A DNA stretch of 35,750 bases from Thermofilales archaeon (GCA_028275925.1 JAPWTS010000011.1:1-35750); one strand, 5' to 3'. Shown: positions 16,030-35,750, counted from the first letter of the stretch. The notes: generated by a model not told the origin, from the sequence alone. A program made the numbers and translations.

Positions 16030-17299
16030 AGTGATAGAGAGGTGGGAGTGCTGGAGCATCAGCAGGGGGCCGGTTGGGAGAGCTTGGCTGCTCGTGTACG
16101 GGAGGAGGAAGACCGGAAAGACGTTCCTGCTCAGGAGCTGCGCCGGTGCGAGCGTTTACGTGACCGTCGGCAGGAGCGGCTCCTGCGTCGTCGAGGAGGG
16201 GGAGCCGCGCGTCGCGAGCCTCGAGGAGGGGGTGAAAGCGGCTCTCCGCGCGGTCGAGAGCGGGTTCACGGCGGTGATCGACGAGTTCCAGCGGCTGCCC
16301 GAGGAGTACTGGGACCTCCTGGCGGTCTCGCGGGCGCGCGGAGGGGGGAGGCTGATCCTCTGCGGCTCCAGCTTGGGGATCGCGTCGAAGGTTTTCGACC
16401 GGAGGAGCCCGCTGCTCGGCCTCTTCGCGCCCTTTAAAGTGGATTTAGCATCCCCGTCCGACACCGTGGCGTCGCTCTCGAGGGCGCTGAACCCCGAGGA
16501 CGCGGTGAAGTGGGCGGTGGTCGCCCGCGACCCCTGGCTGCTCGGCATGCTGGAGCCGAGGGGCGACGTGGTCGAGGCGCTTGCGGAGGCGGCGCCCCTG
16601 CTGGCGGCCTCGGCTTCCGGCCTCGTGGGCGAGATCTTCAGGGAGGAGGAGAGGGCGCTGACCCAGCTGTACGACGCCGTGCTGAGGCTGCTCGCGCTCG
16701 GCTACTGGTCGTCGGCCGCGCTCGCCCAGAAGCTGCACGAGGCGAGGCTGTTGGCGAGGCCCGAGGCGTCCCACGTCACGGGCCTGCTCGCCCAGCTCGC
16801 CGCGATGGGCCTCGTCGAGCGTGTTAGGCTGTGGAGGACGCGGGGCGCTAGGGTCTACTACAGGCACAGGTCGAGCCTCCTCTCGCTGCTAACAGCCCTC
16901 GAGGAGAGGGGGGTTGAGGCCGGCTTCAAGCCGCCGCGCGAGACCGTCGGCAGCCTCCTCGGCGTCGAAGCGCAGTTCTTCGTGGGCGAGCTGCTCGCCG
17001 AGGCGACGGGGTTGGAGCGCGCGTACGCGGTCTCGGGCTCCTGGGAGGTGGACGTCGTGCTGGTGAAGGGCGGGAGGGCGGTGGCGGGCTACGAGGTGAA
17101 GCTCGGCCCCTTCTCGAGCTCCGAAGCCTCGCGGGCGGTGGAGCGGATCAGGAGCCTCGGCATCCCGAAAGCCGGTCTGGTGAGCTTGACGGAGGAGCCA
17201 CCTCCCGTAGCTGACGAGCTGTACGGCCCCCGCGACCTCGTGCGGCTGGCGCGCGAGGTGTCGGAGCGGCGGAAGCTGGCTCACGGCTCGATCTCGTGA
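16025..17299 (+). CDS. Archaeal P-loop ATPase with C-terminal DUF234-like nuclease-fold domain
   Basis: 424 residues. The N-terminal ATPase_2-type domain has Walker A GRRKTGKTF (26-34) and Walker B VIDEFQRLP with Asp86/Glu87. A winged-helix segment follows (about 225-290, LARPEASHVTGLLAQLAAMGLVE), and the C-terminal domain ends with WEVDVVLVKGG and AGYEVKLG, a D...ExK pattern of PD-(D/E)XK folds as in DUF234. This large archaeal family is often multi-copy and mobile-linked; its function is poorly known. ATG start embedded in a 16-bp palindrome. The 3' end overlaps the convergent isomerase gene by 19 nt. Confidence 0.9.
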   Translation: MVVIERWECWSISRGPVGRAWLLVYGRRKTGKTFLLRSCAGASVYVTVGRSGSCVVEEGEPRVASLEEGVKAALRAVESGFTAVIDEFQRLPEEYWDLLAVSRARGGGRLILCGSSLGIASKVFDRRSPLLGLFAPFKVDLASPSDTVASLSRALNPEDAVKWAVVARDPWLLGMLEPRGDVVEALAEAAPLLAASASGLVGEIFREEERALTQLYDAVLRLLALGYWSSAALAQKLHEARLLARPEASHVTGLLAQLAAMGLVERVRLWRTRGARVYYRHRSSLLSLLTALEERGVEAGFKPPRETVGSLLGVEAQFFVGELLAEATGLERAYAVSGSWEVDVVLVKGGRAVAGYEVKLGPFSSSEASRAVERIRSLGIPKAGLVSLTEEPPPVADELYGPRDLVRLAREVSERRKLAHGSIS

Positions 17300-18681
17300 A
17301 CTTCGATGCCCTTGAGCCAGCAGAACGCCCTGATCTCCTCGCTGTAGTCGCCCTCGACCGCGTGCAGGTGGTTCGCGCCCACGGTTTCCACGAGCTTGCG
17401 CATGCTCTCGGGGCGCACCCTCACGACGATGTGGGGCCACGGCTCCATGCTCTTCTTCAGCTCGCCCCTCTCCACCCTCACGCTCCGCGCCACCATGAAG
17501 AGCATGTGGTAGCGGCCCGCCACCCTGTAGAGGCGGGCGATCGTGAAGGTCCGCTCGGGAGCGACGTACTGGGTCGCCGCGCCGCCGGCTTTGCCCTGGA
17601 TCTGGGGGAGGAGGTGCACGCTCCTCAGGTTCTCCTCGGGCTTCGGCGAGGCTTCGGCGAACCACGTCGCCATGCCGCCGCAGTTGCCCATGAAGAGGAG
17701 CTGGCGCTCCGGGTCGTAGACGAGGAGGTCCATGAGGGTCGTCGGCTTGCCCCCGGACACGAGCTTGAGCAGCTGCATCGTGAGCGCCCCGTCCACGTCG
17801 GACTCGCACGCGCAGACCACCGGCTCCTTCGCCCCCTCGGCGTCGTACGGGTCGTTGAGCAGGGCTACGGCGACGCAAGCGTTCACGTAGCCGTCGCTGA
17901 GCTCGGGCTGGCACTTGAGCCCGCAGAAGGCGAAGCCCCTCTCCCCCACGATGCTCTTGAGCGCGAGGTAGACGCGGATCTGCCTCTTCAGCTTTTCCTC
18001 GGTGAGGACCCTGCCGTCGTACGCGATCCTCCCCACCCTCTCGGCGAGCCACCTGAAGTGCCTCTCGACGAGCTCCTCGCTTAAGCTCTCAGCCCTCCTC
18101 AGCACCTCCAGCTGGTCCACGTGCTCGACGTCCACGCCGAAGACGGCCTTCACTTGCGCCGGATCGGCTGTGACCGTGTACATCCCCAGCGCGCGGCCGC
18201 CGATCACGCCAAACGTGGAGCCCTCGAGCCTCCTCGCCGCCATCGCCGCCCTAGCGAGCTTCGCCACCCTCCCCACCACCTCGCCAGCGGGCCCCCAGAG
18301 CACCACCCTCCGCAGCCCCACCTGGCCGAGCGCGCCCGCCGAGGCGAGCAGGCCGCTCAGCACGTCCCCGTACACGGCCACGAAGGGCACGCGCTTCAGC
18401 GCCACCTCGGCAGCCCGCACGGTGATCGAGGGGTAGGTCCAGATCGGGATGTACAGGAGGACGAGGTCGGCGCCCCAGTCGAGCAGGCGCCCCACCTCCG
18501 CCTCCGCCTCGCCCTGGCTCCTGACCACGCTCCCGCTGGCTCGCACCTCGAGGCCCGCGGAGGAAAGAGCTCGGAGGAGCTCGGCCCCCCTCCTCGCCTC
18601 TTCCTCCCTCCACGGGACCTCTTCGCGGGGGTCGCCCAGCGTCACGAGAGCCAGCTTGGGCGTGTAGCTCACGGAGCTCAC
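17281..18681 (-). CDS. L-fucose/L-arabinose isomerase-like protein, copy 1
   Basis: 466-residue cytoplasmic ketol-isomerase of the FucI/AraA-like superfamily, which converts aldoses and ketoses using a divalent metal. Motifs: FCGLKCQPELSDGYVNACV, CESDVDGALTMQLL (metal-binding Glu), LLVYDPERQLLFMGNCGG, PWPHIVVRV and the C-terminal NHLHAVEGDYSEE (His at the metal site). The GTG start overlaps the stop of the PfkB kinase in GTGA, so the two form an operon: the isomerase would make a ketose and the kinase phosphorylate it. Exact sugar unknown. Related copies lie at 29634 and 35539. Confidence 0.87.
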   Translation of the reverse strand: MSSVSYTPKLALVTLGDPREEVPWREEEARRGAELLRALSSAGLEVRASGSVVRSQGEAEAEVGRLLDWGADLVLLYIPIWTYPSITVRAAEVALKRVPFVAVYGDVLSGLLASAGALGQVGLRRVVLWGPAGEVVGRVAKLARAAMAARRLEGSTFGVIGGRALGMYTVTADPAQVKAVFGVDVEHVDQLEVLRRAESLSEELVERHFRWLAERVGRIAYDGRVLTEEKLKRQIRVYLALKSIVGERGFAFCGLKCQPELSDGYVNACVAVALLNDPYDAEGAKEPVVCACESDVDGALTMQLLKLVSGGKPTTLMDLLVYDPERQLLFMGNCGGMATWFAEASPKPEENLRSVHLLPQIQGKAGGAATQYVAPERTFTIARLYRVAGRYHMLFMVARSVRVERGELKKSMEPWPHIVVRVRPESMRKLVETVGANHLHAVEGDYSEEIRAFCWLKGIEVHEIEP

Positions 18682-19685
18682 AGCGGGAGGTTCCTTATTT
18701 TGGTTTTCTCCAGCAGGGAGCGGCCCTGCCCCTCCACCAGCTCCTCTACCTTATCCCTCGAAACGCCTTCCGTCGTGCCGGGGGCCGTGCATGCGCTCGC
18801 GCCCGCAGCCTGCCCGTACAGCAGCAGCTCCGCCAGCTCCTCCCCGCCGGCTTCCGATAGCTCGCTAGCCGAGAGGCCGAGCTCGAGCAGCCTCCAGATC
18901 ACGCCGGCGCAGAACGCGTCGCCCGCCCCCGTGGGGTCGACGACCTCGACCTTGAACGCCGGCTGCTCCACGACGCGGCGCCTGTTGGCGGCGACCGCAC
19001 CCCTTTCGCCCATCGTCACGAGCGCCAGCTTCACGCCCCAGCCGAGGAGCTTGCGCAGCGCCCCCTCCAGGTCGGGGGCGCCGGTGAGGCCCCTCGCCTC
19101 GCTCTCGTTGCAGTGGAAGACGGCGACGTGGGGGAGGGCGGGGAGGATGTAGTCCCAGCCCTTCCCGTGGGGCGGCACCGAGTCGGCGAACGTGATCCGG
19201 CTGACGCGGGCGGCCCTCTCGAAAACCTCGCCGATTCTCGCGTCAACGAGGTCCGTGATCCCGCTAGCCAGGTAGAAGACTTCCGGCCTCTCGCGCTCCG
19301 CGAGCCCGATCACGGTTTCCGGCTTCAGCAGGTTGCTCGCCCCCAGCTCCACGTGGAAGCGCCTGTCCTCGCCCTTCACGACGAGGATCACGTTCTTGTT
19401 CGTGCTGGCGGGCACGCGCTCGATGAAGAGCTTGAGCCCGTAACCCTCCAGCGTCCTGACGATGAAGTCGCCGAAGAGGTCGCTGCCGACGGCCCCGCAG
19501 ACGCCGACGGTCCCCGGCTCCACGCCCAGCTTCACCAGGTCCACGGACACGTTGGCTGGGTGCCCCCCGACGGAGAGGACGATGCCGCGCGGCGCGTAGA
19601 CGAGCTCGCCGGGACCGGCGACCCTCTCGAGGTCAGCCACGACGATGTCCGCCACCAGGAAGCCGCAGGCCAGGACCCTCAGCAC
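18678..19685 (-). CDS. PfkB-family sugar kinase (ribokinase/fructokinase-like)
   Basis: 335-residue ATP-dependent carbohydrate kinase. Signatures: GGHPANVSVDLVKLG (residues 40-54), the PfkB N-terminal sugar-binding pattern; AFHCNESEA-type stretch (FHCNESEARGL); and the catalytic DPTGAGDAFCAG, residues 250-261, with Asp256 as base. Substrate probably a ketopentose, ketohexose or deoxy-sugar made by the co-transcribed isomerase. The GTG start at 19685 fits the bidirectional TATA box at 19709-19717, about 28 nt away. It is the first gene of a two-gene operon whose second start overlaps by 4 nt. Confidence 0.9.
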   Translation of the reverse strand: MLRVLACGFLVADIVVADLERVAGPGELVYAPRGIVLSVGGHPANVSVDLVKLGVEPGTVGVCGAVGSDLFGDFIVRTLEGYGLKLFIERVPASTNKNVILVVKGEDRRFHVELGASNLLKPETVIGLAERERPEVFYLASGITDLVDARIGEVFERAARVSRITFADSVPPHGKGWDYILPALPHVAVFHCNESEARGLTGAPDLEGALRKLLGWGVKLALVTMGERGAVAANRRRVVEQPAFKVEVVDPTGAGDAFCAGVIWRLLELGLSASELSEAGGEELAELLLYGQAAGASACTAPGTTEGVSRDKVEELVEGQGRSLLEKTKIRNLPL

Positions 19686-19708
19686 GCCGCGCTCTGCCGC
19701 GGCGCAGG

Positions 19709-21111: not shown

Positions 21112-22485
21112 GTGACCGGGGTCAAGATCGCGGTAATCGGTGCTGGGAGCGTCGCTTGGTCTTCGACCTTGATAAGGGACCTGTGCGTTACACCGGGCTT
21201 GCGGGGGAGCACTGTCGCCCTCATGGACATCAACGAGGAGAGGTTGAAGCTCGTCCACGCGATCGCGACCCGGTACGCGAAAGAGGTGAAGGCGGACCTG
21301 AAGTTCGAGGCTACGACCGACCGGAGGAGGGCGATCGAGGACGCGGACTTCGTCATCAACACGGCGATGGCGATGGGCCACTCCTACTACGAGCGCATGC
21401 GCGAGCTGTCCGAGAGGCACGGGTACTACAGGGGCATCAACAGCGTCGAGTGGAACATGGTGAGCGACTACCACACGATATGGGGCTACTACCAGTTCAA
21501 GCTCGCCCTCGACGTCGCGCGGGACGTGGAGGACCTGAGCCCCGAAGCCTGGCTCCTCCAGATCGCGAACCCGGTCTTCGAGCTCACGACGCTGATCGGC
21601 AGGAAGACGAGGGTGAAGGTGATCGGCCTCTGCCACGGGCACCTCGGCTACAGGGAGATCGCGGGGGCGCTCGGGCTCGACCCCGAGAAGGTGGAGTTCG
21701 AGGCGGTCGGCTTCAACCACGTCATCTGGCTCACCGAGTTCAAGTACGAGGGGGAGGACGCCTACCCGCTCATCGACGAGTGGATCGAGAAGAGGGCGGA
21801 GGAGTACTGGAAGGTTTGGAGGCAGCACCAGGCCAACCCGTTCGACATACAGATGTCGCCCGCCGCCGTCGACATGTACAGGACGTACGGGCTCTTCCCG
21901 GTCGGCGACACGGTCCGGGGCGGGACGTGGAAGTACCACTGGAACCTCGAGACGAAGCAGAAGTGGTTCGGCCCCACGGGGGGTCCCGACAGCGAGATCG
22001 GCTGGAAGATCTACCTGGATTGGCAGGCTAAAGCGATCGAGATGTTCAAGGAGGCTGTGGCGGACGCGAAGACGCCGCTGACCAGCTTGCTGCCCCCGAG
22101 GAGGAGCCTCGAGTCCGTCGTCCCCATCATCGACTCGATCGTCAACGACCGGAGGGGGCTCTACCAGGTGAACGTGCTCAACCAGGGAGCGCTCGTCGGA
22201 ATCCCCGACGACGTGGCGGTGGAGATCCCGGCGTACATCGACGGGCGCGGCGTCCACAGGATCTACGGCAGGAGGCTGCCCCCCAGGATCATGAAGCACG
22301 TGATGTGGCCGAGGATGATGCGGATGGAGTGGGCGCTCGAAGCCTTCCTGGAGGGCGGGCGGGACCTGCTGTTCGAGTGGTTGATCATCGACCCGAGGAC
22401 GAAGTCGAACGAGCAGGCCGAGGCGGCGATCGACGCGATACTCTCCATGCCAGAGAACGAGGAGATGAGGAAGCACTTCAGCTAA
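21112..22485 (+). CDS. Glycoside hydrolase family 4 (NAD- and metal-dependent glycosidase)
   Basis: 457-residue cytoplasmic enzyme. The N-terminal Rossmann fold IAVIGAGSVAW binds NAD, then ALMDINEERL, IANPVFELTT (about 151-160), the metal-binding C174-H175 in GLCHGHLGY, and GFNHVIWL with N202-H203. GH4 enzymes cleave alpha or beta glycosides by an oxidation-elimination route; the residues after CH help set specificity. CHGx has, as I recall, been linked to alpha-glucuronidase-type members, so a uronide or galacturonide substrate is possible but unproven. GTG start with GATATAC 25 nt upstream. Tandem palindromes upstream suggest regulation. The amidohydrolase gene follows 50 bp downstream. Confidence 0.92.
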   Translation: MTGVKIAVIGAGSVAWSSTLIRDLCVTPGLRGSTVALMDINEERLKLVHAIATRYAKEVKADLKFEATTDRRRAIEDADFVINTAMAMGHSYYERMRELSERHGYYRGINSVEWNMVSDYHTIWGYYQFKLALDVARDVEDLSPEAWLLQIANPVFELTTLIGRKTRVKVIGLCHGHLGYREIAGALGLDPEKVEFEAVGFNHVIWLTEFKYEGEDAYPLIDEWIEKRAEEYWKVWRQHQANPFDIQMSPAAVDMYRTYGLFPVGDTVRGGTWKYHWNLETKQKWFGPTGGPDSEIGWKIYLDWQAKAIEMFKEAVADAKTPLTSLLPPRRSLESVVPIIDSIVNDRRGLYQVNVLNQGALVGIPDDVAVEIPAYIDGRGVHRIYGRRLPPRIMKHVMWPRMMRMEWALEAFLEGGRDLLFEWLIIDPRTKSNEQAEAAIDAILSMPENEEMRKHFS

Positions 22486-22535: not shown

Positions 22536-23396
22536 GTGAAAGCTAGCGTACCAGCGGTCGACTTCCACACGCACATCGGCGAAGTGAAGTCCTTCTCCCC
22601 CAGGCTGAAGGGCTGGGTGAGGGTCGGCGTCGAGGACCTCCTCAGCTACATGGGGGAGCGGGGGGTCGAGCGCGCGGTCGTGCTGTCGCTCCCGCCCGAC
22701 TCCGACCCCTACGCGAAGGTCGTCTCGAACCGGCGGCTGCTCGAAGCCGTGGAGCCGCACGCGGGGAGGCTGGTCCCCTTCTGCTGCCCCAACCCCCTCA
22801 ACGCCCGCGCCGCCTCTCTCTTCAAGCGGATGGTCGGCGAGGGGTGCAGGGGGCTCGGCGAGCTGAAGGTGCAGCTCAGGATCGACGACCCCCGCGTCGT
22901 GAGGCTGTTGAAAGCGGCTGAGAGCTTGGGGGTGCCGGCGCTCGTGCACATCGAGGAGGGGCCGCTCTTCAACTACTGCTACGGCGTCGATAAGCTCGAG
23001 GACGTTTTGAAGCTGGCTCCCGACCTCAAGCTCGTTGTGCACGGGCCCGGCTGGTGGAGGCACGTCTCCGCCGAGCCTGGTACCGAGGCGTACCCGAAAG
23101 GCCCCGTGAAGGGGGAGGGGCTCGTCCACCGGCTCCTGAGGCGCTACGACAACCTCTACGCCGACATCTCCGCCTCCTCCGGGCTCAACGCGCTAGCCCG
23201 CGACCCGGAGCACGCGCGGAGGTTCCTCGAGGAGTTCCAGGATAGGGTGGTGTTCGGCACCGACTTCCCCTGCCTCTCCGAGGAGGGGCAGTTCGGCAGC
23301 GACGGGGCGCACCTCCGCTTGATAGGGGGCCTCCAGCTGCCGGAGAGAGCGGTGAGGAAAATCCTCCGCGAGAACGCAGAAAAACTGCTGGCGTGA
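22536..23396 (+). CDS. Amidohydrolase-2 family TIM-barrel metal-dependent hydrolase
   Basis: 286 residues. VDFHTHIG near the start gives the HxH metal motif (His11, His13), ALVHIEEG supplies a further possible ligand (His), LVVHGPGWW another, and VVFGTDFP the Asp late in the barrel. This is the pattern of Amidohydro_2 proteins, which include lactonases and decarboxylases of sugar-acid or aromatic pathways. The GTG at 22536 was chosen because the frame upstream lies inside the GH4 gene and GGTTAACTTTTTCTCC supplies a promoter about 30 nt before. Its position just after the GH4 glycosidase suggests a role in handling a sugar lactone or acid (inference). Confidence 0.87.
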   Translation: MKASVPAVDFHTHIGEVKSFSPRLKGWVRVGVEDLLSYMGERGVERAVVLSLPPDSDPYAKVVSNRRLLEAVEPHAGRLVPFCCPNPLNARAASLFKRMVGEGCRGLGELKVQLRIDDPRVVRLLKAAESLGVPALVHIEEGPLFNYCYGVDKLEDVLKLAPDLKLVVHGPGWWRHVSAEPGTEAYPKGPVKGEGLVHRLLRRYDNLYADISASSGLNALARDPEHARRFLEEFQDRVVFGTDFPCLSEEGQFGSDGAHLRLIGGLQLPERAVRKILRENAEKLLA

Positions 23397-24662: not shown

Positions 24663-24742
24663 GCGCAAAATGCGCTCGCCCGTAGAAAAAGCTGTTGCCC
24701 GGCGGCGACAGCTTGAAGAGGTCCCCCGCTCCCTTCAAAGCG

Positions 24743-25018: not shown

Positions 25019-25312
25019 GTGGAGCTGGAGAGGCTGGGCTTCGCCCTGATCCTGACCGGCGTCGCCCTAGCGTTCGCGGCGGCGCTCTTCGCTGCCCTCT
25101 CGGCGGCGTGGGGCGGCGCGCTGAGCGTCGGGGGCTGCGTGCTCGTGCTCTTCTTCCCGATATGCTTCGGGGCGGGGCCGCTCGCCCCCCACCTCCTCGT
25201 CGCCTCGCTTGCGCTCGCCCTCGCGCTGGTGGCGCTCAGCTTCGTCCTGTGGAGGTGGGCGCTGAGCGAGGCGCGGCGGCTGGCTCAAGCGCCGGAAAGC
25301 TCGAGCAGGTAG
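25019..25312 (+). CDS. DUF131-like membrane protein, copy 2
   Basis: 97 residues with two membrane helices (about 4-29 and 57-80). The middle loop VGGCVLVLFFPICFGAGPLA follows the DUF131 pattern (G-G-x-V-L-x-x-x-P-I-x-F-G) but is more divergent than the first copy. GTG start 3 bp after the upstream gene. The 3' end overlaps the convergent dolichol-kinase-like gene by 28 nt. Function unknown; the two copies probably arose by tandem duplication. Confidence 0.8.
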   Translation: MELERLGFALILTGVALAFAAALFAALSAAWGGALSVGGCVLVLFFPICFGAGPLAPHLLVASLALALALVALSFVLWRWALSEARRLAQAPESSSR

Positions 25313-26378: not shown

Positions 26379-29300
26379 ATGGGCAGGCGAGCGGCGCTGG
26401 CTTTCGTCGCGCTGCTTCTAGCCTCACCTCTAGCCGCTCCCGCGGAGCTCCCGGGCTCGCCGAGCGGGCGCGCGCTGGAGAGAGCTAGGTTCGTGGTCTT
26501 CCTCATCCCGCACTCGCACTGGGACATCGATTGGCTCATGCCCTGGAGCCAGGCGAGCGAAGTTGCCAGGTCGATAATCCTGTCCGCCGCGCAGCTCGCC
26601 GATCGCCAGAGCGGGTTCAGGTTCGTGGCGGACCAGGTGGCTTTCCTCAAGTACTGCTGGGATCGCTCGAGCGAGGCGGAAAAGCGGCTGCTCCGAACCG
26701 CGGTCGAGAAGGGGTCGATCGAGGTGGCTGGGGGCATGGTCTCCCAGCCGGACACCGTCCTACCGAGCGAGCAGGGGCTGCTGTGGGACGTGCTGCTCGG
26801 CCACTCGTGGGTCGTCGAGACGCTCGCCGTTGAACCGTCGCCGGTGGCTTGGCAGTGCGACCCCTTCGGGCACGCGCCCACGCTGCCCGAGCTGCTGGTG
26901 GCCTCCGGCTACCGCTACGTGTACTTCGGCAGGTGCGGGGAGGGGCAGGAGGCCTGGCTGCCGCACGCCTTCTGGTGGGTCGGCCCCACGGGAGCCAAGG
27001 TGCTCGCCTTCTTCAGGGGCTACTGCGACGGCGAGTTCCTCCTGCGCGCGGCCAGCGCCGACGAGGTGCGCGACAGGCTTCTCGAGATCGTGAAAGACGC
27101 GATGAGCAGGGACGGGATCAACGCGACGATCCTGCCGGTCGGGTGCGACTTCACCCAACCACCCCCCAACCTCGTCAGGCTGGTCGACGAGTGGAACAGC
27201 AAGTACCTGGAGAGCACGGGCGTGGGCCTCGTCGTCGCCACGCCCACCGAAGCCTTCAGGTTCATCGAGGAGCGCTACGGCAGCAAGCTGCGGGAGGTGA
27301 AGCTCGACCCCAACCCGCTGTGGCAGGGCTGGTACCTGACGCATCTAGCCGCGAAGCTCGCTGAGCGGCGAGCATCCTACCTCCTCTCCGCCGTCACCAG
27401 GATGCTGCCGTTGGCCGGAATCGCCGGCCTCAACACCTCCCAGCTCGCCGAGCGCGCCCGCAGAGCGTGGTTCGAAGCCTGCATGAACCACCACCACGAC
27501 AGCATAACCGGAACGAGCCCCGACTCCACGTGGTTCCAGTCGATATGGCCCAGGTACGAGCGCTCGCTGGCCGAAGCTGAGAAGCTCTTCGAGGAAGCGT
27601 TGGAGAGCCTCGCGGCGTCGGTGGGCGGGCGGAGCCCCTTCAGCATCGTCGTGTTCAACCCCTCCGCTAGGGTGCGGCGCGGCGTCGTCCTGGCCAACGT
27701 GACGCTACCCAGCAACATCACGAGCCCCGTCGCGGTCGACGGGGAGGGCGGTGCCTACCCAGTGCAGGTGCTGCGCAGGTGGGCCCTCAACTCCACCCAC
27801 GCCCTGTACGAGCTGGCCGCGGAGACCGGCTACGTGCCACCCCTCGGCTACAAGAGCCTGGGGCTGAAAGAGGGGGGAGCGGAGGTGCCAGCGCCGGCTC
27901 GAGCGTCGCTCGAGGGGGATCGGGCCGTGCTGGAGAACGCGTACGTGAGGCTGGTCGTCAACCTGAGAGCCGGAGGCGTCCTCGAGGAGCTCGTCGACAA
28001 GGTGAGCGGCACCCGGATCCTGGAGGCGGGGTCGGGCGAAGTCGTGTACTACAGGGATTGGGGCGACGTCTACGGCTTCTCGCTGGGCAGCGCGATCGCC
28101 GTCAGCAGGAGCTTCCGGGTCGAGAAAGCCGAAGTGGTTTGGAGCGGGCCGTTGGCAGCCAAGCTTAGGGTCAAGCTGAGCGGTGCCGCCGCGCTAGAGC
28201 TCGAGTACACGCTCTACTACGACGAGCGCGGGTTCGACCTCGCCGCCACCGTGGCGGCGCTCAAGGATTCCACAGCAGCGCTCGCGCTGCGCGGGCTCTC
28301 AGGGCGCTTCGTGTCCGGCGTCGCCTTCGGGGCTGTGGAGCGCCCGCTCGACAGCCGCTTCTGGCCGGTCGGCTACTGGTTCGCCGTCGAGAGACCGGGC
28401 GGGCCCTCCCTCGCGGTTGTCAACCGGGGGGCCGCCCAGGGAGTCAGAAGCTACGCCGGTGAAATCGAGATCGGGTTGACGAGGGACTGCTCCACGCCCA
28501 AGCGCGATAAGATCACGTTCACCGACCAGGAGCCGCACAGGATCGAGCTCCGCTTCCTGATCTACGAGGGCAGCTGGAGGGAGCGGCTCCCGTGGCTCGA
28601 CGCGTACGACTTCAACTACCCGCTCATCGCGGTCACCGCACCGCCGGGGAACCCGGTGCTACCTCCCCAACTCGGGCTCATGAGCGCTGACGGCGGCGCC
28701 GAGCTCGTCGACGCGCTGCCGCTGGGCGACTCGACCTACGTCTTCGTGTTCTCGAACCCCCTCGCGGGAGCCTTCCAAGCGCTCGCCGCCTTCAACGTGT
28801 CCAAAGCTCGGATCTCGCTGGTGGACGGGCGGGAGCTGGGGCCGGCGCAGCTCCGCGCGTTGCGCGGGGCGTCGGAAATCGCGCTGAGCGGCGCAATATC
28901 GGCCGTCAAGCTCGGCTTGAGGGGCGGCTACGCCGAAGTGGGGAGGGGGGAGGTAGAGCTGAAGGTCGAGAACCTCACGGTGGAGGGCGGGAGAAAAGTT
29001 GACGCGCTGGTTTCGATGCGCGACGCGGCTGGCGCGCCGCTGGCCGGGAAGCTGGTCGAGCTGTGGTGCAACGGCAGCGTGGGTCCCATCCTGCTGGCGA
29101 GAGCGCTCACGGGCCTCGACGGGAACGCGCGCTTCAGCCTAGAGGTGAACGCGTCGGGGCCCTCCCGCGTGTTCGCGAGGTTCGCCGGCGACCTCGCCCA
29201 CCGCCCCGCTGAGAGCCGGCCCGCGCTCGCGGAGCTGCAGCCGCGCTACCGCGTTACGCTCCTCGTGGTCGGGCCGCTCGGCGAGCCCGTGGCCTCGGCC

Positions 29301-29588
29301 TACGTCTCGGCGGCCGGTGCGGGGGTGCAGGCTAGGGCTTACACCGACGCCTCGGGCAGAGCGGAGCTGACGCTGCCGCCCGGCTCTTACACGGTCAGGG
29401 TGCTCCACGGCTCCGCCCGGGCCGAGCTCAACGTAGACGTGGCGGGACCCCGCGAGATCCGCGTGACAATCAGCTCTCCGGAAACGGCAGCTCGGCAGCC
29501 GACCCTCTGGCTCGCCGCGCTAGCGGCGGGGGCCGCGCTGGCGGCCTTCGCGCTCGCTCGGCTCACCCGGAGGAGGGCTAGGGGCTAG
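26379..29588 (+). CDS. Secreted, membrane-anchored GH38 alpha-mannosidase-like glycosidase
   Basis: 1069-residue extracellular enzyme. A signal peptide (about 1-22) is followed by a GH38 catalytic domain: metal motif PHSHWDIDW (His47, Asp49), nucleophile Asp161 in QCDPFGHAP, and HHHDSITGT with His373 as fourth metal ligand. Mid and C-terminal beta domains belong to the GH38 fold, then two Ig/CarboxypepD-regulatory-like repeats (about 870-1040, with GLDGNARFSLEV and DASGRAELTLPPGSYTV) and a C-terminal helix TLWLAALAAGAALAAFALARL with an Arg-rich tail, probably a membrane anchor. It would trim mannosides or glycoproteins outside the cell. ATG at 26379, promoter GCTTTTACC about 30 nt upstream. 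The GH38 call is by motif; strict substrate is unknown. Confidence 0.92.
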   Translation: MGRRAALAFVALLLASPLAAPAELPGSPSGRALERARFVVFLIPHSHWDIDWLMPWSQASEVARSIILSAAQLADRQSGFRFVADQVAFLKYCWDRSSEAEKRLLRTAVEKGSIEVAGGMVSQPDTVLPSEQGLLWDVLLGHSWVVETLAVEPSPVAWQCDPFGHAPTLPELLVASGYRYVYFGRCGEGQEAWLPHAFWWVGPTGAKVLAFFRGYCDGEFLLRAASADEVRDRLLEIVKDAMSRDGINATILPVGCDFTQPPPNLVRLVDEWNSKYLESTGVGLVVATPTEAFRFIEERYGSKLREVKLDPNPLWQGWYLTHLAAKLAERRASYLLSAVTRMLPLAGIAGLNTSQLAERARRAWFEACMNHHHDSITGTSPDSTWFQSIWPRYERSLAEAEKLFEEALESLAASVGGRSPFSIVVFNPSARVRRGVVLANVTLPSNITSPVAVDGEGGAYPVQVLRRWALNSTHALYELAAETGYVPPLGYKSLGLKEGGAEVPAPARASLEGDRAVLENAYVRLVVNLRAGGVLEELVDKVSGTRILEAGSGEVVYYRDWGDVYGFSLGSAIAVSRSFRVEKAEVVWSGPLAAKLRVKLSGAAALELEYTLYYDERGFDLAATVAALKDSTAALALRGLSGRFVSGVAFGAVERPLDSRFWPVGYWFAVERPGGPSLAVVNRGAAQGVRSYAGEIEIGLTRDCSTPKRDKITFTDQEPHRIELRFLIYEGSWRERLPWLDAYDFNYPLIAVTAPPGNPVLPPQLGLMSADGGAELVDALPLGDSTYVFVFSNPLAGAFQALAAFNVSKARISLVDGRELGPAQLRALRGASEIALSGAISAVKLGLRGGYAEVGRGEVELKVENLTVEGGRKVDALVSMRDAAGAPLAGKLVELWCNGSVGPILLARALTGLDGNARFSLEVNASGPSRVFARFAGDLAHRPAESRPALAELQPRYRVTLLVVGPLGEPVASAYVSAAGAGVQARAYTDASGRAELTLPPGSYTVRVLHGSARAELNVDVAGPREIRVTISSPETAARQPTLWLAALAAGAALAAFALARLTRRRARG

Positions 29589-29633: not shown

Positions 29634-31031
29634 GTGAAGAAGATCAGGATCGGCTTCGTCCCCCTGCACCGGCGCCCCTTCGACGAGAAGTGGGCGCTCG
29701 AGCTCAAGGAGAGGTTCATCGCCGCGGTGAAATCCGGGTTCGGGGACGCCGTCGACCTCGTTTACCCGAGCGAGAAGGACACGAAGCTGGGGCTCGTCTC
29801 CGACGACGATGACGCGGAGGCGGTTGCGGAGCTGTTCAGGAGGGAGGGCGTGGACGGCATCGCGATCGCCGCGCTCACGTTCGGCGACGAGCTGGCCGGA
29901 GCCAGGGTCGCGGAGCTCGTCAGGAAGCCCGTCGTGATCTACGCGACGAAGGAGCCGCCCGCGCTGCCGGGCGGGTTCCGGCGCTCCGACTCCTTCTGCG
30001 GGACGCTCTCGCTGGCTTCAGCCCTCTACAGGCGGAAGATACCGTTCCTCTTCGGCGGGATCGTCCTGCCCGAGGAGGAGGGGTTCAGGAGGAGCTTCGA
30101 CGCGTTCGTGAGGGCGGCGAACGTGGTCAAGGTCTTCGTCGGCGCGAAGGTCGGAGCCATCGGCCCGAGACCCGAGAGGTTCGAGACAGTGACCTTCAAC
30201 GAGGCCGCGATGGCCGCGAAGTTCAACCAGAGGGTCGTCCACGTGGACCTCCTCGAGGTGGTGGAGGAGGCGCGCAAGCTGGGCGACGACGACCCCCGCG
30301 TAGCGAAGGTCGTGGAGGAGGTGGCTCGGCAGCTCGACGCTTCGGGGGCGCCCCGCGAAGCTCTAGTCAGGCTGGCGAAGCTGGAGGTCGTCCTGAGGGA
30401 GCTGGCGGAGCGGAGGGGGCTGGTGGGCTTGGGGCTGCGGTGCTGGACCGAGCTGCAGAGGTTCTACGGCGTGACGCCCTGCCTCGTCATGGGCCGCTTG
30501 ACCGACTCGGGGGTCATGGCCGCGTGCGAGGTGGACGTCTACGGCGCGCTGACGATGGCGATGCAGTACGCCGCTTCGCTGGGCAAGTCCGTCCCCTTCT
30601 TCATCGATTGGACCATCAAGCACCCGACGAGGGAGAACGTGTTCCTCGCCTGGCACTGCGGGAACATGCCCCCCTCCCTCTGCCACGGCGTGTGCAGGCT
30701 CGGCTTCCACAGCGTGATGTACAGGGAGGTGGGGGCGGAGCGCAGCTACGGGACCGTGGACGGGAGGATGAAGCCGGGGACCGTAACGATCAGCAGGCTC
30801 GTCGAGTACGACGGCGAGTTCAAGCTCTTCCTGACGAAAGGGAGGATCGTGGAGGAGCCGGGTGAGTTCAGGGGGAGCTGGGCTTGGGTGGAGGTCCCCG
30901 ACCTCGACAAGGTCTACAGGACGCTGATCGAGGAGGGCTTCGTCCACCACGCGTCGATGATCCACGGCGACCTCGCCGAACCGCTGGCGGCGGCCGCCAA
31001 GCTCCTCGGGATAAAGGTGGTGGCGGTCTAG
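29634..31031 (+). CDS. L-fucose/L-arabinose isomerase-like protein, copy 2
   Basis: 465 residues, same superfamily and length as the copy at 17281. Motifs: LRCWTELQRFYGVTPCLVMGRLTDSGVMAACE, then EVDVYGALTMAMQYAAS (metal-binding Glu), FLAWHCGNMPP, and SMIHGDLAEPL near the C-terminus (His). The N-terminal about 100 residues read as a Rossmann-like substrate domain. GTG start 45 bp after the mannosidase stop; TATA-like GCGTTTTGTACG about 26 nt upstream, so it may have its own leaderless transcript. A T-run terminator follows at 31050. Proximity to the mannosidase suggests it works on the released hexose or on mannose-related sugars (inference). Confidence 0.87.
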   Translation: MKKIRIGFVPLHRRPFDEKWALELKERFIAAVKSGFGDAVDLVYPSEKDTKLGLVSDDDDAEAVAELFRREGVDGIAIAALTFGDELAGARVAELVRKPVVIYATKEPPALPGGFRRSDSFCGTLSLASALYRRKIPFLFGGIVLPEEEGFRRSFDAFVRAANVVKVFVGAKVGAIGPRPERFETVTFNEAAMAAKFNQRVVHVDLLEVVEEARKLGDDDPRVAKVVEEVARQLDASGAPREALVRLAKLEVVLRELAERRGLVGLGLRCWTELQRFYGVTPCLVMGRLTDSGVMAACEVDVYGALTMAMQYAASLGKSVPFFIDWTIKHPTRENVFLAWHCGNMPPSLCHGVCRLGFHSVMYREVGAERSYGTVDGRMKPGTVTISRLVEYDGEFKLFLTKGRIVEEPGEFRGSWAWVEVPDLDKVYRTLIEEGFVHHASMIHGDLAEPLAAAAKLLGIKVVAV

Positions 31032-31055: not shown

Positions 31056-31180
31056 CCCCATCGGGTTTAACGTTTGTGCAGCGCGCCGGGGGGTGCGGAG
31101 CCCACGGGGCGCTCTCAACCGCCGAAGGATGCTGGAAAATCGGCAGAAGGGTTTACAAAGCCCAAACGCGCTGGCAGCGC

Positions 31181-31900
31181 GTGGCCAGAGCGAAGCTCGT
31201 GGCGGCTTCCTCCCTGATGGCGGCGCTCGTGTTCGTGGTTACGGCCAGCTTCTCCCTCTACATACCGGAGACCCGGGGCTACTTCAACTTCGGCGAGGCA
31301 GCCGTCTACGCATCGGCTTTCGTGCTCCCGCCACCCTGGGCCGCGTTCGCCGGGGGCGTGGGCTCGATGCTCGCGGACGTAGCGCTCGGCTACTACCACT
31401 ACGCCCCGGCGACCCTCGCGATCAAAGCCTGCGAAGCGTACGTCGCGTCGCTGCTCCTCAGGAGGAGGCCGAGAGCCGCCAGCAGGGCAGCGGGCTTCGC
31501 CGCCTCCCTCGCCCCGCCGGCGCTGCTGGCCGCTCTAGGCGCGGCCTTCTACACGGGCAGGGCTGAGGCGACGCTGGCGCTGCCGGCGAGCCCCCTCGCG
31601 GCGACCCTGACGTGGGAGATGAGCGTCGCTGCGTGGCTCGCGGCCGCTGCCGCGCTCGCTGCCTACTCCGCTTACGCGAGCTTGAAGAGGCCGGAGGCGG
31701 GTTGGGCGGCGGCTGCGCTGGCGGCGTCCGGCCTGGTGATGGTCACCGGCTACTTCCTCTACGAGCAGCTGATCCTCGGCGTCGCGGCCCTAGCGGAGGT
31801 GCCGTTTAACTTCATGCAGGTCCTCGTAGGGGTTAGCGCCGCCCTCCTAGCGGAGAGGAGGTTGAGCCAGCTGGCGGTGGACGCCGCTAAGGGACGATGA
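31181..31900 (+). CDS. ECF-type transporter S component-like membrane protein
   Basis: 239-residue hydrophobic protein. The N-terminal half GYFNFGEAAVYASAFVL, FAGGVGSMLADVALGYYHYAPATLAIKACEAYVAS matches the conserved S-component pattern (N-x-G-E/D-x-x-x-x-x-x-x, G-x-G-S-x-x-A-D, Y-A-P-x-T-x-x-I-K). The C-terminal half repeats as GYFLYEQLILG and VPFNFMQVLVG. S components bind vitamins or other micronutrients and share ATPase modules encoded elsewhere; none is seen nearby. The GTG at 31181 is supported by GGTTTACAAAG about 26 nt upstream. It overlaps the convergent dehydrogenase gene by 14 nt. The ligand is unknown. Confidence 0.85.
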   Translation: MARAKLVAASSLMAALVFVVTASFSLYIPETRGYFNFGEAAVYASAFVLPPPWAAFAGGVGSMLADVALGYYHYAPATLAIKACEAYVASLLLRRRPRAASRAAGFAASLAPPALLAALGAAFYTGRAEATLALPASPLAATLTWEMSVAAWLAAAAALAAYSAYASLKRPEAGWAAAALAASGLVMVTGYFLYEQLILGVAALAEVPFNFMQVLVGVSAALLAERRLSQLAVDAAKGR

Positions 31901-32831
31901 CGCCCTTGATGTAGTCCCGCGGCTTCTTCGAAGCGTACTCGAAGGCGGCCTGTATCTCGCTCAGGGGCCACTTGTGGGTGACCAGCTTCTCCATCTTGAA
32001 AACCCCTCTGCCCAGCATCCGCATCGCCAGGCGCAGGTTGGGGCGCATGTCCTCCGCCCTGTTCGGGTTGGTCATGATGACCTCGAGCCCCTTCGAGTCC
32101 CAAGCTGCGAGGTCCACGGGGACCGGGAGCGGGTGGAAGCTGAAGATGCAGAGCCTCCCCCTCCTCCGGACGAGCTTCGTGGCTACCTCCACGCCCTTGG
32201 GCGAGCCGGTGGCTTCGATCACGATGTCGAAGCCCCCGCCCACCTCGGCCGCCAGCTTCTCGGGGCTCTCGCGCTCCGGGTTGAGCAGCGTGTCGGCCCC
32301 GAACTCGGCCGCCAGCTCCAGCCTCTCCTCCTTCACGTCCACGGCCGCCAGCCGGTCGAGACCCATCCTGCTGAGGGCCTGCACGAGCAGGAGCCCCATG
32401 AAGCCCGTTCCCACAACGGCGACCGTGTCCCCGAACTTCGGCTCAGCCAGCCTGACGCCGTTCACCGCGCAGGCGAGCGGCTCCCCCAGCGCGTGCTCGA
32501 TCGGCACGCCCGGCGGCACGGGCTCCGCGTAGCTCTCGTCCACGATAACGTAGTCGGCGTAGCCCGGCCCGCCCAGCACCGCCACCCGGTCGCCCGGCTT
32601 GAACCTGGTGGCCCTGGGCCCGACGTCGACGACCACGCCGGCCGGCTCGTGGCCGAGCGCGGCGGGCAGCCGGTACCAAACAGGGTAGCCGAGGAACGCG
32701 TATATGTCGCCGGTGCATATGCCGCAAGCTCCGACCCTGACGAGGATCTCCCTCTCGCCCAGCGGCCGCACCTCCTCATCCCGCAGCTCGAACCTCCCTC
32801 TTTCCACAAGGTAAGCGACTCTACCCTTCAC
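31887..32831 (-). CDS. Zinc-type medium-chain alcohol/polyol dehydrogenase-like
   Basis: 314 residues with GroES-like and Rossmann domains. Zinc ligands: Cys in VGACGICTGD, GHEPAGVVVDVG (His, Glu), and a GEPLACAVNGV stretch; NAD(P) site VVGTGFMGLLLVQAL with acidic residue AAVDVKEERL. The four-cysteine structural zinc loop of classical enzymes is absent, making the protein shorter than usual (about 340-350). Substrate may be a sugar or polyol (sorbitol or threonine dehydrogenase class). GTG start supported by CTTATTAG (32853-32860). Divergent from the antitoxin gene at 32908. Confidence 0.88.
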   Translation of the reverse strand: MKGRVAYLVERGRFELRDEEVRPLGEREILVRVGACGICTGDIYAFLGYPVWYRLPAALGHEPAGVVVDVGPRATRFKPGDRVAVLGGPGYADYVIVDESYAEPVPPGVPIEHALGEPLACAVNGVRLAEPKFGDTVAVVGTGFMGLLLVQALSRMGLDRLAAVDVKEERLELAAEFGADTLLNPERESPEKLAAEVGGGFDIVIEATGSPKGVEVATKLVRRRGRLCIFSFHPLPVPVDLAAWDSKGLEVIMTNPNRAEDMRPNLRLAMRMLGRGVFKMEKLVTHKWPLSEIQAAFEYASKKPRDYIKGVIVP

Positions 32832-32907: not shown

Positions 32908-33141
32908 GTGGCCGCCAGCGCTGAAGAGCTCCTAAAAGAGTGGGAGGAGGAGGATAGGGAACTGAGAGAGCTGAGAAGGAGGAGCGCTGACTGGAAGTAC
33001 ATCGAGAGCCTACCGCCGCGGGTGAGGGAGGCGGTCGAGCTGTATATAGAGACAGGGGACATATGGCTGGCCGCCAAGCTGGCTGGCTTGACCGTGGACG
33101 AGTTCAACGAAATCCGAATCAAGGCGGGGATCCTCTGGTGA
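32908..33141 (+). CDS. Antitoxin-like protein upstream of PIN toxin
   Basis: 77 residues, Glu/Leu/Arg-rich N-terminal helix (EELLKEWEEEDRELRELRRR) followed by a helix-turn-helix-like part (LYIETGDIWLAAKLAGLTVDEFNEIRIKAGI). It is in VapB position, upstream of and overlapping a PIN-domain toxin (GTGA). I do not recognise a named antitoxin family. The second part can bind DNA as a HTH and the first can wrap the toxin. GTG start; TATA-like GGTTATTTGAAG is about 24 nt upstream. A paralogous gene lies after the toxin. Confidence 0.82.
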   Translation: MAASAEELLKEWEEEDRELRELRRRSADWKYIESLPPRVREAVELYIETGDIWLAAKLAGLTVDEFNEIRIKAGILW

Positions 33142-33692
33142 GCTTGCCCTCCACCTGCGTGCTCGATGCCTGCTTCATCATCGACTGGGCTCGGTGGAGC
33201 AAGCGCAACTCGCTGTGGAGGGTTTTCTCCTTTGGTTTCGTACCCGAACCAGTCTTACGCGAAATCTCGACATCAGGACCCCTCAGGGTCCTGAGGGAGT
33301 GGATGTCCGCAGGCTTCCTAACCGTACACCCCTCGTCGAGAGATCTCGAGGACGAAGCGTTAAGGCTGATCGTCGAAGCGAGAAGGAATCCGAGGATACC
33401 GAGGATCGACCCGCCCGAGGCCGTTTGCGTCGCCCTAGCCAGGCGCATCGGCGCGGTTGTTCTGACGGAGAACCGCGGCGTGATCAGGGCCTACGAAATT
33501 GCCAGAGAGAACCTAGCTCCAGCCGTCGTCTGGAACTCGCTGCGCCTTCTGGCCTACCTTTACGCGACAGGCGTCGCGGTTTCCAGCAGCTTCGAGGAAC
33601 TTGTCGCCGAGTACGAGCAGGAGGTTAAGCATACCTTCTCGCGGCGAGAGGTGGTTAGGGTTGCCAAGGAGTTCGGGATCCTTCAAGCTTGA
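33138..33692 (+). CDS. vapC: PIN-domain toxin (VapC-like ribonuclease)
   Basis: 184-residue PIN domain with acidic residues Asp10 in VLDACFIID, Glu42 in VLREIS, Glu94 in DPPEAVCVALA and Glu111 in VVLTENRGV. The last two are Glu where many VapCs have Asp, which still allows metal binding. Such proteins cleave RNA when freed from the antitoxin. GTG start overlaps the antitoxin stop, showing an operon. The C-terminal extension of about 55 residues after the core (NSLRLLAYLYATGVAV...) is longer than the shortest VapCs. Its end overlaps the second antitoxin-like gene by 32 nt. Confidence 0.85.
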   Translation: MSLPSTCVLDACFIIDWARWSKRNSLWRVFSFGFVPEPVLREISTSGPLRVLREWMSAGFLTVHPSSRDLEDEALRLIVEARRNPRIPRIDPPEAVCVALARRIGAVVLTENRGVIRAYEIARENLAPAVVWNSLRLLAYLYATGVAVSSSFEELVAEYEQEVKHTFSRREVVRVAKEFGILQA

Positions 33693-33912
33693 GGAGCTCC
33701 TAGAAGAGTGGGAGGAAGAGGATAGGGAACTGAGGGAGCTGAGGAAAAGGCGAGTTGACCGAGAGTACGTGGCGAGCCTGCCCTCTAGGCTTCGGGAGGC
33801 GGTCGAGCTGTACGTGGAGCAGGGGGACCTGAGGCTCGCCCACGAGCTCTCCGGCCTGCCGCTCGACGAGTTCGTCGAGGTCCTCAGGAGAGCCGGTGTT
33901 TGGGCGGGTTAA
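33661..33912 (+). CDS. Second antitoxin-like protein, paralog of the gene at 32908
   Basis: 83 residues. From residue 10 it aligns with the first antitoxin without gaps (LEELLEEWEEEDRELRELRK...; LREAVELYVEQGDLRLAHELSGL). The DNA around 33691-33750 is also close to 32923-32982, showing a recent duplication. TTG at 33661 is the likeliest start, inside the PIN gene's end; no clear Shine-Dalgarno was seen, so the exact start is uncertain. No further toxin follows on this strand. Convergent overlap of 29 nt with the TIM-barrel gene. Confidence 0.75.
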   Translation: MPRSSGSFKLEELLEEWEEEDRELRELRKRRVDREYVASLPSRLREAVELYVEQGDLRLAHELSGLPLDEFVEVLRRAGVWAG

Positions 33913-34762
33913 GCAGCTCGCCGCTCGAGGCGATCAGCCGCTTAAGGTAATCCACGCGCGCGTTGGGGTCGGGGCAGAGCCTCATCTCGCCCGGGATCTC
34001 GAGGTTCAGGGGCTTCCGGTAGCCGACCGCGTCCAGCGCCGCGAGCACCTCCCCCCACTGTATCGTCCCCCTCCTGGGGAAAAGGTGCTGGTCCCCGCTT
34101 CCGTCGTTATCGCTGATGTGCGTGGCGGCGATCGCCCTCCCCACCTCCTCCACGAGCTTGTGGACAGCGCCCCTGTAAGCCTCAATGTTCGCGTGGCCCG
34201 TGTCGACGCAGACGGCCACGCTGGGCGACAGCTCCTCGACGAGGCGGAGCAGGTGGCTCGCGAGGGACCCGTAGCCGCGCGCCGTGTTCTCCACCGCCAG
34301 CACCACCCCGCAGTCCTCCGCTACGCGAGCGAGCCTCCTGTACGCGCCGAGGTTCAGGCGCTCGAGCTCCTCTAGGCTCAGCCCCCTAGCGGTGAAGGGG
34401 TGGCAGACGAGCACCGCGACGCCGAGATCCCTACACCTCTCGATCCACTCCTCCACCACCTTCACCGATGCTTCCAGGTCCCAGATCGACTCCAGCTCGA
34501 ACGGCTTGAAAGGGCCGTGAGCGTGGACGAACTCGATCGGTGGCAGCGAACCCAGCTCGACAGGCCCCCTGCTTGCCAACGCCTCCGCCCTAGCCCGCGA
34601 TGCTGAATCGAGATAGGATCTCGCCCCCAGGCGGGCCAAGTACTCGTTGAAGTGCTCCGCTGAGAGCTCCAAGCGCGGGAACCCGCCGCTCCAGAGGCGC
34701 TCCAGCGCCTCCTCGAAGCTATACTCGACGAGCCACGACGTCCAAACGCTCCACTCGCGCAC
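33884..34762 (-). CDS. Sugar phosphate isomerase/epimerase family (xylose isomerase-like TIM barrel)
   Basis: 292 residues. Features of the AP endonuclease 2 superfamily: HAHGPFKPFEL, CHPFTARGLSLEEL, VLAVENTARG (metal-binding Glu), VCVDTGHANI (Asp/His), ATHISDNDGSGDQHLFPRRGTI (His, Asp) and LNLEIPGEM (final Glu). Fits sugar or sugar-acid epimerases/isomerases. The GTG at 34762 is chosen over a longer frame because a T-rich TATA-like region (34785-34797) lies about 28 nt upstream and the residues before it (WTRAAGPA) lack family likeness. It follows the LUD gene on the same strand with 40 bp between. Confidence 0.88.
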   Translation of the reverse strand: MREWSVWTSWLVEYSFEEALERLWSGGFPRLELSAEHFNEYLARLGARSYLDSASRARAEALASRGPVELGSLPPIEFVHAHGPFKPFELESIWDLEASVKVVEEWIERCRDLGVAVLVCHPFTARGLSLEELERLNLGAYRRLARVAEDCGVVLAVENTARGYGSLASHLLRLVEELSPSVAVCVDTGHANIEAYRGAVHKLVEEVGRAIAATHISDNDGSGDQHLFPRRGTIQWGEVLAALDAVGYRKPLNLEIPGEMRLCPDPNARVDYLKRLIASSGELLNPPKHRLS

Positions 34763-34802
34763 AGCCGGTCCAGCAGCTCGCGTCCAAAAACGGTTACCGC
34801 TG

Positions 34803-35438
34803 CTAGTAGCCGAGCTCCTCGTCAACCAGCACGACGTGGAAGTCGGCGCGGGAGGGCTTCCGCTCCAGCACGAGGAGCGCCCTGCAGGCGCGCTCCGGCG
34901 AGTCGCAGTCGACGCAGTAACCCAGCTCGACGCACGGGGTCCGCAGGCCCAGCCTCTTGCAGTTCATCACCGCCGCCACGTTCCTCGCCCTCCAAACCCC
35001 CTCCTCCACGCTGCGCGCGAGCTTGTTCCTCCCCGCGACCACGACGACCCGCTTCGGCCCGAAGAGCAGCGCCGCCGCGCGGTTCCCCACGCCATCCAGC
35101 ACCACCAGCTTCCCGTCCAGCGTTACGGCGTTCACGCTGCTGAGGAAGACGTCGGACACAAGCTCGGCCCTCCTCAGCGCGTCGAGCTCCTCGGGAGGAG
35201 CTTGAACCCAGTGGTGCACCACCCTGCACCCCCTCCGCTCGAGCTCCTCGATCAACCCCAGCTCCCTCACCGTCACCGAACCTCCCACGCCCACCGTCGA
35301 GCCCGGGGGGATCAGCGAGAGCACGAAGCTCCTAGCCTCCTCCGAGCTCCAAGCCACGTAAGCGGAGAAGCCGTTCCTCCTCAAGGCTTCAGTCGCCCGC
35401 TCCAGCAGCGCCCTACGGTACCACCTCCTCGCCTCCAC
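34803..35438 (-). CDS. LUD-domain (DUF162, LutC-like) protein
   Basis: 211 residues. TVGVGGSVTVRELGL matches the phosphate-binding-like loop of the LUD family, NAVTLDGKLVVLDGVGNR is the second conserved block, and near the end MNCKRLGLRTPCVELGYCVDCDSPERAC gives a cluster of Cys typical of these proteins. LUD proteins take part in oxidation of lactate or related hydroxy acids; stand-alone copies in archaea are uncharacterised. GTG start at 35438 fits a GCAAATAAGC box (35458-35468), about 25 nt away. Confidence 0.87.
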   Translation of the reverse strand: MEARRWYRRALLERATEALRRNGFSAYVAWSSEEARSFVLSLIPPGSTVGVGGSVTVRELGLIEELERRGCRVVHHWVQAPPEELDALRRAELVSDVFLSSVNAVTLDGKLVVLDGVGNRAAALLFGPKRVVVVAGRNKLARSVEEGVWRARNVAAVMNCKRLGLRTPCVELGYCVDCDSPERACRALLVLERKPSRADFHVVLVDEELGY

Positions 35439-35487
35439 GCGCTCCCTGCTCGCAAGCGCTTATTTGCATGGCGCCGCACCGAGAGAT

Positions 35488-35511
35488 GAAACAAAAAGAA
35501 AGAAAAGAAGA
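35488..35511 (-). terminator. Pyrimidine/T-rich terminator after partial isomerase
   Basis: The minus strand reads TCTTCTTTTCTTTCTTTTTGT through this stretch, 28-51 nt past the stop codon of the isomerase at 35539. It is by far the most A/T-rich purine/pyrimidine-biased stretch nearby and fits archaeal T-run termination. Confidence 0.6.
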
Positions 35512-35538
35512 CGTTTATCGGGGCTTGCCGCGGCTCAG

Positions 35539-35750
35539 CTAGCTGACGAGCTCCCAGATCGGCTTGTGGAACCTCTTCGCGTCCTCCCCCAGCACGATCG
35601 GCTTCACGCCTGCTATCTCGCAGAAGCGCACGAGCTCCTCCACGTGGTCGCCCGGGATCCCGTGGATGTGGTTCGCAGGGAACACGTTGATGAACTCCTC
35701 GAAGCTCGCCTTCAGCTTCACGTACATGTGCGGCCAAGTCGGGTTCGTCT
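35539..35750 (-). CDS. L-fucose/L-arabinose isomerase-like protein, copy 3 (5' part outside window)
   Basis: Only the C-terminal about 70 residues lie in the window; the frame is open at the edge. The visible part begins TNPTWPHMYVKL, matching PWPHIVVRV of copy 1, and continues NVFPANHIHGIPGDHVEELVRF, in which ANH(x)HxxxGD aligns with ANHLHAVEGDY of copy 1 (metal-site His). It ends at a TAG (35539-35541). The start of the gene is not visible. Family by alignment with the two full copies. Confidence 0.82.
   Translation of the reverse strand, partial: TNPTWPHMYVKLKASFEEFINVFPANHIHGIPGDHVEELVRFCEIAGVKPIVLGEDAKRFHKPIWELVS

Follow-up and report, generated by a model that had tools for sequence, protein, structure and literature searches.

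The 35,750-nucleotide stretch of Thermofilales DNA analysed here (the window) carries a real, well-formed archaeal carbohydrate-catabolism island with three isomerases of the fucose isomerase (FucI) superfamily, each of a different ancestry. The window is the entire contig C36 of a Thermofilum-related metagenome-assembled genome (G000; 1.95 Mb, 95% complete) and includes the archaeal markers XPD-type helicase, Ras-like GTPase and type II/IV secretion ATPase. The island is probably a modular system in which each module has its own metal-dependent aldose–ketose isomerase. The first of these, I1, together with an adjoining PfkB-family kinase, would convert an aldose to a ketose and then to a ketose phosphate, with mannose as the best guess for the aldose. 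A first-pass annotation, made by a model from the sequence, had proposed a sugar island here, and Pfam searches recover its principal genes on the strands it described: I1, the PfkB kinase, a glycoside hydrolase family 38 (GH38) mannosidase and the second (I2) and third (I3) isomerases. Its carbohydrate-catabolic reading is supported, and the modules also include a LUD-domain gene and an energy-coupling factor (ECF) transporter S component. Comparisons cover 27 genomes of the order Thermofilales; genes outside the window were called with a codon-usage caller, and their starts are approximate.

I1 (17281–18681, minus strand) encodes a 466-residue protein with Pfam matches to Fucose_iso_C (1.6e-12) and Fucose_iso_N2 (4e-9). 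The best PDB matches of its AlphaFold model (pLDDT 91) are L-fucose, D-arabinose and L-arabinose isomerases, and fucose, D-arabinose or L-arabinose isomerases account for all 41 matches at E ≤ 0.001. The predicted metal ligands (E293/D318/H438) lie in a pocket of the FucI class (Q/NH), and the E/D/H ligands are fully conserved in an alignment of 12 I1-branch proteins. NCBIfam scores are 57 bits for the SftI model and 41 bits for FucI; a plasmid search with I1 gave no match. The PfkB-family (ribokinase/fructokinase-like) sugar kinase gene (18678–19685, minus strand) overlaps I1 by 4 bases. Its product belongs to PF00294 by family match (3e-42), fold and the GAGD catalytic motif, which is embedded in DPTGAGDAF. 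The kinase model (pLDDT 85) matches PDB structures of ribokinases, KDG kinase, fructokinase and YihV, and fructokinase is the top PDB sequence match. The segment GGHPAN conforms to the GGxPAN motif of fructokinase/IolC-type kinases; this motif and the fructokinase match would suit a ketohexose substrate.

The operon-like pairing of I1 and PfkB proposed in the first-pass annotation is borne out by the gene overlap and by adjacency in four of the five Thermofilales genomes with I1 (G000, G017, G019 and G001), kept down to 59% PfkB identity. We infer that the two genes are co-transcribed. All five genomes with I1 have a PfkB ortholog, as do 3 of the 22 that lack I1 (G002, G013 and G009; Fisher p 7e-4, relatedness not corrected). 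No I1 was found in G002, and the kinase ortholog there overlaps a xylose-isomerase-like TIM-barrel gene, as if another isomerase type had replaced I1 beside the kinase. G011 keeps the order TGase–I1, with a full-length GH38 gene in the place of PfkB and the PfkB ortholog on another contig. In G001 the PfkB–I1 pair is preceded by a gene for a mannoside phosphorylase of family GH130 and one for a phosphomannomutase-family protein.

I2 (29634–31031, plus strand; 465 residues) begins 45 bases after the end of the GH38 alpha-mannosidase gene (26379–29588, plus strand), directly behind a secreted mannosidase as had been predicted. The GH38 assignment follows from Pfam (3e-41), a PDB match to alpha-mannosidase II and the retained zinc/nucleophile motifs HSHWD (45), DPFGH (161) and HHHD (371). 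The protein starts with a signal-like hydrophobic stretch and ends with immunoglobulin-like and carboxypeptidase-regulatory-like domains and a C-terminal transmembrane anchor; hydrophobic stretches at both ends are expected of a secreted, membrane-anchored enzyme. The fold of I2 is assigned from Pfam (Fucose_iso_C, 7e-18) and alignment; among the isomerases, the structural model is that of I1. Its predicted ligands are E299/D325/H439, in a W/HH-class pocket like that of apiose- or sulfoquinovose-isomerase-type proteins. I2 scores 156 bits on the NCBIfam SftI model (cut-off 700) and does not match the FucI models, and a PDB sequence search returned no match at E 0.1. It is followed by a gene for an ECF transporter S-component-like membrane protein (31076–31900, plus strand; PF07155, 4e-20), whose true start is probably farther downstream. 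In three genomes an ECF S component of this riboflavin-type family is encoded close to one of these isomerases, I2 in the window and in G017, I3 in G019 (L068 4554–5075 and L064 17594–18142 outside the window); they are possible uptake partners, or the recurrence is a coincidence.

I3 is truncated by the contig end, and the window holds its last 69 codons and stop (35539–35750, minus strand). This part contains a third Fucose_iso_C (PF02952) match (35602–35748, minus strand; 40 bits), above the family cut-off. The remainder lies on contig C130, where positions 16270–16396 (L075) are identical to window positions 35624–35750, an exact 127-base end overlap, and I3 very likely spans the junction of the two contigs. 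In G018, a genome of the same genus, an unbroken full-length copy shows 87% identity to the joined open reading frame across 497 residues. Because of this overlap, the identity to the G018 gene and the same downstream genes, we take the third isomerase to be real and probably intact. I3 scores 119–140 bits on the NCBIfam FucI models (cut-offs 775–850) and has no match to the SftI model. Its neighbours are a LUD-domain protein (34803–35438, minus strand; Pfam 1.8e-42), an overlapping gene for a xylose-isomerase-like TIM barrel (AP_endonuc_2; 33884–34825, minus strand; Pfam 8e-31) that is a candidate ketose epimerase, and a zinc-dependent dehydrogenase that is inosose/threonine dehydrogenase-like by Pfam and NCBIfam (31887–32831, minus strand). 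The same order is found in G018, with a LUD copy 76% identical at the same place and a dehydrogenase copy 73% identical beside I3–LUD–TIM barrel. A stand-alone LUD protein is fixed between I3 and the TIM-barrel gene in these two genomes.

All three isomerases score above the Pfam cut-off for the PF02952 superfamily, and each of them has E, D and H at the positions of FucI E337, D361 and H528. Pairwise identity is 19.5–34%. In a 44-row tree (LG+C20), I3 groups with Escherichia coli FucI (support 94/86), although the latter has a long branch (2.51) and its position is unsure. I1 groups with its Thermofilales orthologs (100/100) and more weakly with Jordarchaeia/Njordarchaeum proteins (81/86), in a branch that covers archaea and several bacterial phyla. 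I2 groups with proteins of apiose-type operons (100/99). The pocket columns split in the same way as the tree: at the columns of Q300 and N527-H528, I1 and I3 agree with FucI, and I2 has W and HH. The tree branches, the pocket columns and the low identity therefore indicate that the island is a meeting of old subfamilies rather than a local duplication, and a recent triplication was rejected. The description of the three genes as paralogs accordingly holds at the superfamily level and not for a recent family. An outcome named in advance as contrary to the first-pass annotation, placement in unrelated known subfamilies with fixed, different substrates, was found in part: the branches do differ, but the subfamilies have no established fixed substrates.

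The same genome encodes a fourth, more distant FucI-like isomerase on contig C71 (L076, 3035–4498), beside an FtsX-like permease protein. It falls in a branch that also holds a RuBisCO-adjacent copy of G009, where two overlapping FucI-like isomerase genes (454 and 448 residues) lie directly upstream of RuBisCO (contig C56, L071, 11746–15847). That RuBisCO is form III-type and intact-looking, is encoded on the same strand as the isomerases and stands beside a divergent sugar ATP-binding cassette (ABC) transporter; a FucI–RuBisCO link was dropped as not conserved, the other genomes encoding RuBisCO elsewhere. Tree and alignment also define an archaeal-only FucI-like branch with N at the second metal ligand (FucI D361), comprising L071 13144–14508, L079 2223–3560 and 7706–8998, L081 13216–14613 and L083 9289–10533. 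These proteins may be non-isomerases or differently metallated.

The modular organisation of the island is apparent from G018, which shares the order XPD, TGase, DsbD, GH4, amidohydrolase, membrane protein, dehydrogenase, TIM barrel, LUD and I3. This genome lacks PfkB–I1 between TGase and DsbD, and it lacks GH38–I2–ECF between the membrane protein and the dehydrogenase. The island is probably assembled from modules that were separately gained or lost. G000, G018, G019 and G011 form a compact natural presence/absence series through which each isomerase could be linked to its glycosidase and kinase in archaea.

We propose that I1 would turn a free aldose, released by the glycosidases of the cell, into a ketose, which the adjoining PfkB would phosphorylate for entry into glycolysis. 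Our confidence in this aldose–ketose–ketose-phosphate logic is good, and our confidence in D-mannose as the sugar of I1 is low. The best single guess for the route, D-mannose to D-fructose to fructose phosphate, is based on the GH130 and phosphomannomutase genes of G001, the GH38 neighbours, the GGxPAN motif and fructokinase match of the kinase, and the apparent isomerase swap in G002. A GH38 gene directly neighbours each of the three isomerases somewhere: I1 in G011, I2 in the window and I3 in G018. In the second module, the membrane-anchored extracellular GH38 would free a sugar that I2 isomerises. In the third, I3, a member of the FucI branch, may act with the LUD protein, the TIM-barrel epimerase and the dehydrogenase; its first candidate substrates would be fucose or sugars of the D-arabinose type. 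The suggestion in the first-pass annotation that the island handles deoxy or rare sugars is most plausible for I3, and nothing specific points that way for I1 or I2.

Several observations weigh against this proposal. We know of no member of the I1 branch with an established substrate, and the nearest characterised relatives, fucose and D-arabinose isomerases, use other sugars. The genome encodes a ROK-family kinase, for which mannose could be a direct substrate, as well as five FGGY kinases, so that PfkB is not the sole candidate partner. In other phyla, I1 relatives stand in different contexts (transketolase, FGGY, SSF or ABC transporters), and the branch may hold several specificities because of these differences. 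In favour of mannose, the number of isomerases with a GH38 gene less than 4 kb away is 3, where 0.43 would be expected (Poisson p 0.01); this signal is modest, as GH38 occurs in 27 of the 27 genomes of the order, so that its presence is unspecific and only its adjacency is specific, weakly. No relevant paper came out of literature searches for fucose or mannose isomerases of Thermofilum. A broader and rather doubtful extension of the proposal is that I1 founds a group of FucI-pocket free-hexose isomerases (acting, for example, on D-mannose to give D-fructose), which with a co-transcribed PfkB fructokinase would form an isomerise-then-phosphorylate route for alpha-mannosides in hyperthermophilic archaea. 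Such a route would not be homologous to the known AGE-type mannose isomerases or to hexokinase with phosphomannose isomerase, and would be an alternative to both. Our search found no characterised I1-branch member, and a single assay could assign a widespread enzyme group; a hyperthermophile mannose or hexose isomerase of this fold could be of practical use in rare-sugar and fructose production.

Classical L-fucose or D-arabinose catabolism is an unlikely alternative. Here I3, and perhaps I1, would isomerise the sugar, FGGY kinases encoded elsewhere (the genome has five such genes) would act on the product, and the dehydrogenase and LUD protein would handle lactaldehyde. LUD domains occur in lactate-utilisation proteins, and the grouping of I3 with E. 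coli FucI, its FucI-model scores and the Q300 and N527-H528 columns common to I1 and I3 fit this scheme. The I1 fold is also like that of FucI (PDB 1fui, 3a9r). However, I1 and I3 are shorter (about 466–500 against 591 residues) and only 20–24% identical to FucI, their scores fall far below the equivalog cut-offs, and the long E. coli branch leaves the I3 placement unsure. I1 is adjoined by PfkB rather than FGGY, and neither a fuculose-phosphate aldolase nor a fucosidase gene is found within the island. It is also improbable that PfkB and I1 are neighbours by chance and serve separate pathways. The separate contigs of the two orthologs in G011 and the three genomes with the kinase and without I1 would agree with this, but the gene overlap, the adjacency kept in four genomes at down to 59% PfkB identity and the co-occurrence of the two genes, among relatives that are not independent, argue against it.

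For I2, the tree raises a route that degrades plant-derived apiose, with I2 as a D-apiose isomerase (ApsI). The proteins with which it groups come from Rahnella, Sodalis, Listeria and Monoglobus, and their genes adjoin split transketolases and FGGY or glycerol-type kinases, a layout reportedly assigned to apiose by Carter et al. The identity of I2 to these proteins is only about 30%, no kinase adjoins it, and GH38 stands beside it instead. The transketolase N domain (PF00456) was not found in its own genome (95% complete), and the 14 genomes of best quality in the order gave no match either. With no enzyme for the apulose-phosphate transketolase step, the known apiose route is excluded for I2, and we consider it quite improbable that I2 is a D-apiose isomerase in an apiose-degrading island. 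Archaeal sulfoglycolysis is likewise very unlikely. In this scheme I1 or I2 would be a sulfoquinovose isomerase (SqvD/SftI) and PfkB a sulfofructose kinase, with the N-glycans of archaea as a possible source of sulfoquinovose. The W/HH pocket of I2 is of the same class as in SftI-type proteins, and a Jordarchaeia relative of I1 lies beside PfkB and a DeoC/LacD-class aldolase gene. The SftI-model scores of I2 and I1 are nevertheless far below the cut-off, and proteins from apiose contexts reach 104–117 bits on the same model. The sulfonate-binding YihV residues K27, N109 and R138 are not conserved in the aligned window kinase. In addition, the I1 pocket is of the FucI and not the SftI type, the two GH31 enzymes of the genome are MalA-like and lack the YihQ R/W stretch of a sulfoquinovosidase, and none of the sulfolactaldehyde-processing genes was seen nearby. 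Kinase residues, pocket class and the lack of a sulfoquinovosidase-like GH31 thus disfavour sulfoquinovose for I1 and PfkB, and no sulfoquinovose pathway has been characterised in archaea (PMC12890257). SqvD is a member of PF02952, the kinase of the sulfo-Embden–Meyerhof–Parnas (sulfo-EMP) pathway belongs to PF00294 and its aldolase to PF01791, and there are published sulfo-EMP clusters into which SqvD has been swapped (PMC9594981).

That pathway bears on the I1–PfkB pair in another way, as do sulfo-EMP2 systems, which likewise have a PF02952 isomerase feeding a ketose kinase. The use of PfkB rather than FGGY beside a FucI-like isomerase had been singled out as uncommon, a claim that is weakened by these systems, by the Jordarchaeia cluster and by two plasmids. 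A Deinococcus peraridilitoris plasmid combines a PF02952 isomerase, a PF00294 PfkB kinase, a tagatose-bisphosphate-type aldolase and a GH31 enzyme; a Persicobacter plasmid combines PfkB, isomerase and FBA. The plasmid isomerases are of the W/HH class, their kinases are distant and their clusters include an aldolase, whereas the window has none. The pairing is therefore a general arrangement already known, of which the window pair is a variant whose substrate is unassigned. A lack of FGGY kinases as the reason for using PfkB is false for this genome.

The remaining sugar-related genes, also called correctly in the first-pass annotation along with the dehydrogenase and TIM barrel, are those for a GH4 enzyme and an amidohydrolase. 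The GH4 protein (21112–22485, plus strand) is a putative alpha-glucosidase like Thermotoga maritima AglA, with a PDB match to 1obb (1.6e-150, 505 bits) and a full-length NCBIfam AglA match of 557 bits, close below the equivalog cut-off of 650; its host, unlike that of AglA, is archaeal. The Amidohydrolase_2 gene (22536–23396, plus strand; PF04909, 1.4e-20) follows 50 bases later, and the pair is conserved in G018, where the amidohydrolase copy is 60% identical.

Other genes of this stretch (DsbD-like, DegT, membrane-protein and PIN-like) have no obvious sugar-catabolic role. The DegT-type sugar aminotransferase (23409–24668) has no nucleotide-sugar genes around it; G019 carries another DegT, 43% identical, about 11 kb from I2. 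A membrane protein without a Pfam match (25285–26022) ends in SPEDNLTLPLG and by eye is reminiscent there of CTP-dependent polyprenol/phytol kinases (SEC59/VTE5 type). Between the dehydrogenase and TIM-barrel genes lies a reading frame that looks PIN-nuclease-like by eye, with no Pfam match (33063–33692). Outside the island, the Ras-like GTPase of this Thermofilales genome is a Ras-family small GTPase encoded at 5494–6018 (Pfam 3e-40).

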